From assembly GCA_024639625.1 (NCBI GenBank), contig JAHEIA010000003.1, positions 1 through 18,976 of the forward strand: a stretch of DNA of 18,976 nucleotides, written 5' to 3'. The notes under the pieces are model-generated. The model saw nothing but the letters and a program-made list of their open reading frames with translations. It ran no database searches and was not told where the DNA came from. This DNA is from Chromatiales bacterium. GTDB taxonomy: Bacteria; Pseudomonadota; Gammaproteobacteria; Chromatiales; Chromatiaceae. Within the stretch, counting starts at the first letter, position 1, and each line of letters starts with the position of its first letter. Below are positions 15,244-17,886 of the stretch, one piece after another. The translations under genes and the position numbers were made by a program.

Positions 15244-15732
15244 TCATCTGACCAGAAAACGCCGCCGAATATCCCGTAAGACGATGAACAGCCAGGGCCA
15301 GAGAAGCATTCCTACCAATGGTGGAACCCAGTACCACAGGGGTGGGGCCGGCTCTCCCGTAGCTCCGGCGACCCAGAGCGTCAGCAATCGATCGACCAGC
15401 AACAAGACCAGCACTGTGAGTGCCTGCTGCCAGAGCGGGAACAGGCGGATCCGTTGGTGCAGCTTTACGGCCAAGAACGCGACTACGGAGAGACCAAGTG
15501 CGTGCTGTCCCAGGAGGCTGCCGGAGAGCACGTCGAGCAGGATCCCGATCGTCCATCCGACACCGACCCCGACCCGATCGGGTAGGGCGATGCACCAGTA
15601 GATCAGGACCATGGCGGGCCAAGGCGGGCGCAATGGCTGCGCCCACTCGGGTAGTGGGAGCACGACGAGGATCAATGCCAGTACGAAACTGACGCCGACG
15701 GTAAGACCTCCTTGATGCTGCACGAGCGTCAT
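15244..15732 (-). CDS. mreD: rod-shape determining membrane protein MreD
   Basis: Small polytopic inner-membrane protein of the elongasome that works with MreC to regulate PBP2-RodA. The 162-residue product is almost entirely hydrophobic, with about five helices. It includes the typical RPPWPAMVLIYWCIALPDRVGVGVGW near the first third, LLDVLSGSLLGQHALGLSVVAFLAVKL in the middle, and a basic tail RDIRRRFLVR. Its ATG overlaps the mreC TGA by four bases (15729-15732). Sequence identity in this family is low, so the call rests on hydropathy, the LDVLxGxxLGxxAL-like block and position. Confidence 0.95.
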   Translation of the reverse strand: MTLVQHQGGLTVGVSFVLALILVVLPLPEWAQPLRPPWPAMVLIYWCIALPDRVGVGVGWTIGILLDVLSGSLLGQHALGLSVVAFLAVKLHQRIRLFPLWQQALTVLVLLLVDRLLTLWVAGATGEPAPPLWYWVPPLVGMLLWPWLFIVLRDIRRRFLVR

Positions 15733-16622
15733 GGAGCGGTGGCTTCCAGGTCGCCTTCAGGGTCGGCAAGAAGTTCGCCATCCAGCTCACTTTCCGTGCC
15801 CGGCTGCAGGGTCCATACCAAGAGCACTTCACGCGTGCGTTCCAGGTGGGCGCTTGGGGTGGCGATAACAGTGGCAAAAGGGTCGCCCGGTTCATGGGCG
15901 ACCCGGGTAACCCGGGCGACCGGATACCCGGGTGGGAAACTGCCTCCCAGCCCGGAGGTAACCAGCAGGTCTCCTTCCCGGATATCCGCGTTGTTCGGCA
16001 GATGGGGGAGTTCCAGCTGGTTGATCTGTCCCATGCCAAAAGCTATCGTGCGCAGCCCGTTCCGATTGACCTGCACCGGCAACGCGTGGCTGGCGTCGGT
16101 GATCATAAGGACTGTGGCGGTGAACGGGTTTACGCGGACCACCTGACCCATGACCGCGTTCGCATCGAGTACTGGTTGGCCAAGATAGGCACCGTTGAGC
16201 GCCCCTTTGTTGATCACCACCTGTTGCTTATACGGGTCCAGGTCGACCGAGAGGAGTTCCGCGATCAACACTCGGTCACCGATCTTGAACGAGGACCCCA
16301 CGAGGTCGCGCAGGCGCATGTTTTCGCTTTCCAGCGCCTCCATTTTCTGCAGCCGAGCCAATAACAGCAGGTTCTCCCGATGCAGGCGCTCGCTCCGCGA
16401 CTCCAGCTCGCTCCGGCTTGCGAAGCTGGCGATCAGGGTCCGTCCTGCATCAACCGGAAGGCCGGCGACGTACTGCAGTGGATAGATGGCGATGGCCAGT
16501 AGAGAGCGCACGGACTCCAGGTGGTGGTGGCGGTGGTCAACCACGACAAAGATCAGGGAGACCAGAGCCGCCACCACTACCCGGGTATTGATCGACGGGC
16601 CTTGTGCGAAAAGGAATTTGAT
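15729..16622 (-). CDS. mreC: rod-shape determining protein MreC, probable ATC start
   Basis: Bitopic periplasmic scaffold that links MreB/MreD to PBP2. If translation starts at ATC 16622, the 297-residue product begins (M)KFLFAQGPSINTRVVVAALV, which aligns with the E. coli start MKPIFSRGPSLQIRLILAVLV as I recall it. It has a helix at about 15-28 and a coiled coil near 57-95. The beta domains include DPYKQQVVINKG, VMGQVVRVNPFTATVLMITDASHALPVQV, LPNNADIREGDLLVTSGLGGSFPPGYPVA. A strong GGAGGTGG lies just upstream of the ATC. An in-frame TAG at 16646-16644 closes the frame, with no ATG, GTG or TTG before GTG 16577. That GTG gives 282 residues, lacks a ribosome site and drops the conserved N terminus. 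A sequencing error at the start codon is possible. Confidence 0.88.
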   Translation of the reverse strand: MKFLFAQGPSINTRVVVAALVSLIFVVVDHRHHHLESVRSLLAIAIYPLQYVAGLPVDAGRTLIASFASRSELESRSERLHRENLLLLARLQKMEALESENMRLRDLVGSSFKIGDRVLIAELLSVDLDPYKQQVVINKGALNGAYLGQPVLDANAVMGQVVRVNPFTATVLMITDASHALPVQVNRNGLRTIAFGMGQINQLELPHLPNNADIREGDLLVTSGLGGSFPPGYPVARVTRVAHEPGDPFATVIATPSAHLERTREVLLVWTLQPGTESELDGELLADPEGDLEATAP

Positions 16623-16650
16623 CGGAAGTCCACCTCCGTTGCGCTAACGG
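16620..16650 (-). promoter_or_regulatory. mreC ribosome-binding site, small hairpin and non-canonical start
   Basis: On the minus strand GGAGGTGG (16637-16630) precedes ATC (16622-16620) by seven bases. A 5-bp stem (16650-16646 with 16640-16636, five-base loop) includes the first two G of the Shine-Dalgarno, so the site may be partly masked. The in-frame TAG (16646-16644) lies within this hairpin. The strong ribosome site fits compensation for a poor start codon; regulation is inferred. Confidence 0.55.
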
Positions 16651-16714
16651 CACCCGGGGTTTCGCTGCGGCGCGGGATGGCCGCCGCAACTGCCCGGCCA
16701 CCGCCCAGGGACAC

Positions 16715-17886
<1,172 letters not shown>

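Follow-up and report, generated by a model that had tools for sequence, protein, structure and literature searches.

Apparent AUU, AUC and AUA start codons of mreC in much of the Gammaproteobacteria and their pairing with strong Shine-Dalgarno sequences

The window analysed here is a whole stretch of 18,976 nucleotides from a Chromatiales bacterium of the class Gammaproteobacteria, taken from a draft assembly of 626 contigs that is 88% complete. The genes mreB, mreC and mreD lie on its minus strand (Table 1), and mreC was identified by the PF04085 domain of its product and by the mreB-mreC-mreD gene order. Across the start of mreC, the minus strand reads GCAACGGAGGTGGACTTCCG ATC AAA TTC CTT TTC GCA CAA GGC CCG TCG ATC AAT ACC CGG GTA GTG, and the frame translates as (I)KFLFAQGPSINTR from the ATC. 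In the window, no ATG, GTG or TTG occurs in frame from the TAG (16646-16644) to the ATC (16622-16620). The window locus thus has no canonical in-frame alternative upstream, and its Shine-Dalgarno (SD) sequence stands at initiation spacing. The aligned place in Escherichia coli K-12 mreC (L217) reads ATG AAG CCA ATT TTT. A sequence-only reading of this DNA had placed the mreC start at the ATC, with an SD seven bases before it, a TAG eight codons upstream and a GTG 15 codons on. These three positions were correct on re-reading, and the proposed start was borne out by comparison, the aligned codon being ATT, ATC or ATA (collectively ATH, or AUH in the transcript) in most relatives.

Table 1. Coordinates of the mreC locus and its start region in the window
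Feature	Position	Strand	Basis or remark
mreC coding sequence including stop	15729..16622	-	PF04085 on the window's own protein (P0001); relatives are named MreC
ATC start codon of mreC (apparent)	16620..16622 (read 16622-16620)	-	aligns with E. coli ATG and with ATT/ATC/ATA of relatives
Shine-Dalgarno sequence GGAGGTGG	16630..16637	-	7 bases 5' of the ATC; duplex energy -10.8 kcal/mol (window row L001)
In-frame TAG	16644..16646	-	eight codons 5' of the mreC ATC
mreC codons 2-14, conserved KxxFxxGPSxxxR	16581..16619	-	shared with relatives; substitutions follow coding periodicity
First in-frame canonical start downstream, GTG	16575..16577	-	15 codons past the ATC; judged not to be the start
mreB-mreC intergenic region	16623..16714	-	direct reading of the window
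mreB, upstream gene, ATG start	16715..17764	-	direct reading of the window
mreD, downstream gene, ATG start	15244..15732	-	overlaps the mreC stop as ATGA

Related loci were collected by searches of increasing breadth. The first search covered 92 genomes, of which 88 matched; the first 30 loci and 57 further 5' ends were read, and nine of these genomes were re-read at greater length. The match in G091, which sits at the edge of a contig and covers the query only from residue 126 onward, was excluded; L074 did not extend far enough to enter the later count. The class search matched 209 of 232 genomes, from which 29 loci (L088-L116, some of them repeating genomes) and 91 places taken by coordinates were used. 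The phylum search matched 126 of 150 genomes and supplied 29 loci (L248-L276, a few of them repeating genomes), along with 20 further places in other classes. For a scan of the named collection, a public Pseudomonas aeruginosa MreC was set first in the alignment and the best 80 loci were kept. These loci come from Pseudomonas, Stutzerimonas, Atopomonas and Pseudomonadaceae, except for one Pantoea and one Paucimonas, and all were entered under the family of the Pseudomonas genomes by our own assignment. Altogether, 325 rows were scored with an N-terminal profile built from such loci, in which the start residue was left unscored. Removal of identical 5' ends reduced them to 282, and the 250 with a recognisable N-terminus were retained, 32 unalignable rows being dropped.

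Thirty loci of the window's family, counting the window itself, have ATC (18), ATT (10) or ATG (2) at the aligned position. Across the 250 distinct 5' ends, the start position holds ATT in 88, ATC in 84, ATA in 20, ATG in 24, GTG in 3, TTG in 2 and another codon in 29, so that ATH occupies 192 of the retained ends, compared with 24 for ATG and 5 for GTG or TTG. Aligned at the nucleotide level, as the sequence-only reading had proposed, the mreC 5' ends of relatives therefore mostly carry ATC, ATT or ATA rather than ATG; its statement that AUC starts are very rare fails for mreC in this class, where ATC alone is found in 84 of 250. No in-frame ATG, GTG or TTG lies between the start and the upstream stop in 169 of the 192 ATH rows (in five of the 169, that stop lies beyond the sequence read), and the other 23 have a canonical codon farther upstream in frame. 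Sorting of all 250 rows by their in-frame codons gave 169 with ATH only, 23 with ATH and a canonical codon upstream, 29 with a canonical codon at the place, 20 with a canonical codon only upstream, 6 lacking a canonical codon but with ATH displaced upstream by one to three codons, and 3 with none of these. The upstream stop lies within five codons in 40 of the 169, and no other ATH or CTG intervenes in 37 of these 40. ATH was found in 63 of 102 families and ATG in 16 (E. coli counted as its own family); with the 58 rows of the named pseudomonad scan set aside, ATH holds 134 of 192 start positions. As judged from these alignments, AUU, AUC or AUA is an apparent mreC start common to much of this bacterial class. 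Twenty loci were also read outside the class but within the phylum, at one or two per family; every one has at least one in-frame canonical start near its N-terminus, so that no AUH start is called for there, and those N-termini do not align.

The best 80 named loci, nearly all from pseudomonads, carry ATH without exception (ATT 63, ATC 13, ATA 4), and in 75 of them the upstream part of the frame is free of canonical starts. Those with ATT include P. putida strains 31303 (L313) and 31800 (L325). In the genus of G338 (Pseudomonas), mreC was present in 25 of 25 genomes, and the 12 loci read, one of which (G342) had already been read earlier, all have ATC or ATA; one of the 12 encodes a protein identical to a public P. 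aeruginosa MreC in 268 of its first 270 residues. The choice of ATT in pseudomonads does not follow the isoleucine codon usage of the same genes (63 of 80 starts vs 255 of 892 isoleucine codons in the best 80 named loci), a comparison whose p-value is only indicative because the sequences are related.

Changes of the start codon were counted on a midpoint-rooted FastTree phylogeny of MreC (first 20 residues omitted) and MreB with 116 rows. At least 28 changes among ATC, ATT and ATA and at least 7 between ATH and ATG were obtained, counts that carry no direction and do not distinguish gain from loss of ATH. At the third base of the start codon, A, C and T replace one another freely, and changes to G are less frequent. 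When all canonical starts were counted on the same tree, upstream ones included, at least 19 changes separated ATH from canonical starts, indicating that the trait is far from fixed.

The point at which translation begins was further delimited by patterns of substitution. In 48 ATH rows from the family of the window, diversity at positions 1, 2 and 3 of codons 2-14 is 0.32, 0.25 and 0.62, compared with 0.70, 0.60 and 0.67 in the 24 bases upstream of the ATH, which show no coding rhythm. This pattern is also present in 63 rows of Pseudomonadaceae and in single rows from 61 further families. The view of the sequence-only reading that the residues ahead of the GTG are translated is upheld by this conservation of codons 2-14 with coding periodicity. 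The comparison thus shows the ATC at 16622-16620 to be the apparent codon from which the window mreC is translated.

Two other accounts of the ATC have to be weighed. The real start might lie elsewhere, at the GTG of 16577, at codon 4, or at an out-of-frame GTG within the SD followed by a frameshift, and automatic annotation does often pick other codons. Among the best 239 listed public MreC proteins (119 from one search, with the window's own left out, and 120 from another; protein sequences only), 36 start at the ATC-aligned place, 57 at codon 4 and 14 upstream, and 132 are without the conserved N-terminus, these classes having been assigned by pattern with at least one long upstream extension falling among the 132. 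The codon-4 records P0121, P0123, P0129, P0009, P0014 and P0020, for example, begin with MFSKGPS or MFTQGPS. However, a start at GTG 16577 would lose the conserved N-terminus and is excluded by the coding constraint on codons 2-14. Codon 4 is itself ATH in only 45 of 192 rows, and GGAG, GAGG or AGGA ends 6-9 bases before codon 1 in 135 of the 154 ATH rows having one, which places this core 15-18 bases from codon 4; at the related locus L249, codon 4 is too far from the SD. A start elsewhere is therefore very improbable. A misreading of ATG as ATC through a sequencing or assembly error, for which the draft state of the 626-contig assembly could be cited, has a negligible probability: ATC, ATT or ATA stands at the same place in 28 of 30 loci of the family and in 80 of the best 80 named loci, and assembly error is refuted by these relatives.

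The start codon was then compared with the strength of the SD, expressed as the duplex energy between the upstream bases and the anti-SD end. Median energies are -7.2 kcal/mol for ATH (n=192), -3.0 for ATG (n=24), -3.5 for GTG or TTG (n=5) and -4.0 for shuffled upstream sequence, and the difference between ATH and ATG persists when family medians are compared (63 vs 16 families, one-sided p=2.4e-7). Of the 192 ATH rows, 169 contain an SD core (GGAG, GAGG, AGGA or GGGG) and 23 lack one; among the 24 ATG rows, 7 contain one. No such contrast is seen in the SD of mreB when these groups are compared (p=0.96, 29 vs 8 families). All 10 ATG-only subtrees have a weaker SD than the three ATH rows closest to each (sign test p=0.002). 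In this test several branches are unsupported, some ATH rows are reused, and four rows whose ATG precedes the aligned place by one to three codons are counted as ATG. Well-supported branches provide only four independent ATH/ATG pairs, with a mean of 2.0-3.0 in the same direction and 0.0-0.1 in the opposite one depending on the threshold, so that significance is out of reach. Several ATG rows run against the trend, with an SD of -5 kcal/mol or stronger: L137 (-8.6), L090 (-6.1), L263 (-5.9), L159 (-5.7), L143 (-5.4), L268 (-5.2) and L267 (-5.0). In terms of predicted duplex energy, ATH starts are shown to be paired with strong SDs and ATG starts mostly with weak ones. Since AUG lineages mostly carry a weak SD, the combined strength of initiation appears to be maintained by selection.

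We consider it probable, with some reserve, that mreC starts at the ATC and that its AUH start serves as dosage control of MreC, holding initiation at a set, limited rate. The initiator tRNA would read the ATC of mreC as fMet, as in infC, and the mismatch in the P-site would lower initiation on an otherwise strong SD site, so that MreC would be synthesised at a set, limited rate. Stabilising selection may act on the initiation rate of mreC, with two combinations able to reach that rate: a strong SD ahead of AUH, or a weak SD ahead of AUG. We infer both the limited output and its benefit for the balance of MreC to MreD. The earlier suggestion that output is kept low by the start codon fits the codon/SD trade-off, while the output level itself is presumed. 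Lowered output from AUH at mreC would follow by analogy with other genes: according to the accessible part of PMC13009471, AUU and AUA starts in Staphylococcus aureus reporters give about 10% of AUG output, with ccpN reaching up to 30% in rich medium. A strong SD could also fully compensate for a weak codon, in which case MreC output need not be low. The importance of dosage is suggested by the accessible portions of two papers. In E. coli, about 180 copies of MreC are reported and overexpressed MreC or MreD disturbs cell shape; MreC changes the PBP2-RodA interaction, MreD suppresses that change, and balanced expression is argued to be important (PMC7793260). Work on P. aeruginosa MreC proposes accumulation past a threshold as a possible "on" signal and cites E. 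coli ribosome profiling in which MreC is about twice as abundant as MreD or PBP2 (PMC8137920), indicating that MreC would be limited there without being the scarcest partner.

The role of the AUH start may also be read in other ways. Under IF3-coupled regulation, which we hold to be rather unlikely, AUH would put mreC, like infC, under discrimination by IF3, and MreC would follow ribosome status and growth state. The window's own assembly, 88% complete, yielded no infC, which probably lies on a missing contig, and the infC of relatives was used instead; in 24 of the 25 resolved loci its conserved start is ATC or ATA (30 fetched, 5 unresolved; counted by eye, with canonical codons farther upstream in frame in several), which is consistent with such coupling, as is the variation of the S. 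aureus ccpN AUA start with the medium in the available excerpts of PMC13009471. However, the at least seven AUH/AUG changes in the class are accompanied by a weaker SD where the codon is AUG, and E. coli manages with an AUG mreC. The tie to initiation fidelity proposed in the sequence-only reading may exist, but such a link to IF3 is not indispensable, as is shown by lineages that combine AUG with a weak SD, for example E. coli. It is similarly doubtful that mreC is a second, widely shared IF3 target, with IF3 availability setting the MreC dose and thereby switching lateral wall synthesis; if true, IF3 and mreC would form a direct translational link from ribosome status to cell shape that is absent from E. 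coli and its close relatives. Historical compensation without a regulatory role, in which an old weak codon offset by a strong SD simply persists at ordinary output, draws on the fact that the codon/SD trade-off equalises strength without showing that strength to be low. Yet 63 of 102 families contain ATH starts although ATG is one base away, and AUU and AUA starts of S. aureus with an extended SD still yield about 10% of AUG output in the accessible text of PMC13009471; we therefore give this reading only a small chance of being correct.

The apparent AUH start places mreC beside a small number of known genes. One of them is infC, which encodes IF3 and shares with mreC the AUU/AUC/AUA start class and the upstream SD, also in relatives of the window; infC differs in being autoregulated by IF3, whereas no description of such a loop was found for mreC, and in several lineages mreC starts with AUG. 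Autoregulation of infC by IF3 was reportedly described by Butler in 1987. The pcnB gene of E. coli, with its AUU start, resembles mreC in having a weak start codon, reported for pcnB to limit expression, while mreC is a morphogenesis gene; the work on this limiting AUU start is said to be that of Binns and Masters in 2002, and genes preferring non-AUG starts were reportedly treated by Gvozdjak and Samanta in 2020. E. coli mreC has the orthologous start position and the N-terminus MKPIFSRGPSLQIR, but combines AUG with a weak SD (-3.0 kcal/mol). In S. aureus, cvfC1 (AUU) and ccpN (AUA) have conserved non-canonical starts, strong SDs and lowered initiation according to the available part of PMC13009471; their SDs are extended, and mreC has 0 occurrences in that text. 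Taken together, mreC joins the conserved genes with AUH starts, adding a wide distribution and an informative codon/SD trade-off.

Some public records already place the start at the ATC-aligned codon. No treatment of a non-AUG mreC start was found among the titles and abstract openings listed from one open-access library with few subscription papers, and the accessible portions of PMC2170320, PMC3831641, PMC3244453 and PMC6212727 do not mention with which codon mreC starts in this class. Across much of a large class, including P. putida and P. fluorescens, a key morphogenesis gene appears to start with AUU, AUC or AUA, a start class known from few genes. An AUH start would explain many of the discordant N-termini among public MreC records. 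Furthermore, mreC offers a natural series of codon/SD combinations for one gene, making it testable whether the dose of MreC is set at initiation and whether IF3 affects cell shape, the latter question being masked in E. coli by the AUG start of its mreC.

The neighbouring genes were also considered at loci with an ATH mreC. By a rough start caller, mreB starts with ATG in 92 of 107 such loci (15 non-ATG). A canonical mreD start lies near the mreC stop in 112 of 113, being ATG in 98, as read by a rough caller of canonical starts only, to which a non-canonical start is detectable solely by absence. The mreC stop and the mreD start of the window overlap as ATGA at 15729-15732, suggesting translational coupling of mreD to mreC, so that the mreC start may also set MreD output. 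The gap between mreB and mreC has a median of 87.5 nt over 194 loci, making translational coupling of mreC to mreB unlikely. A conserved structured leader is not general, with folding z < -2 in only 19 of 94 intergenic regions. Strong mreB-mreC hairpins (z -3.3 to -7.0) were observed at L217, L248, L250, L270, L278 and L279, which include E. coli, Pseudomonas and some others; these hairpins are possibly a second, not general, layer that lowers mreC relative to mreB. At one locus, L180 (genome G269), the start position holds GTT behind a strong SD (ccccggaggttcct), with an in-frame stop seven codons upstream, possibly representing either a GUU start or a sequence error.
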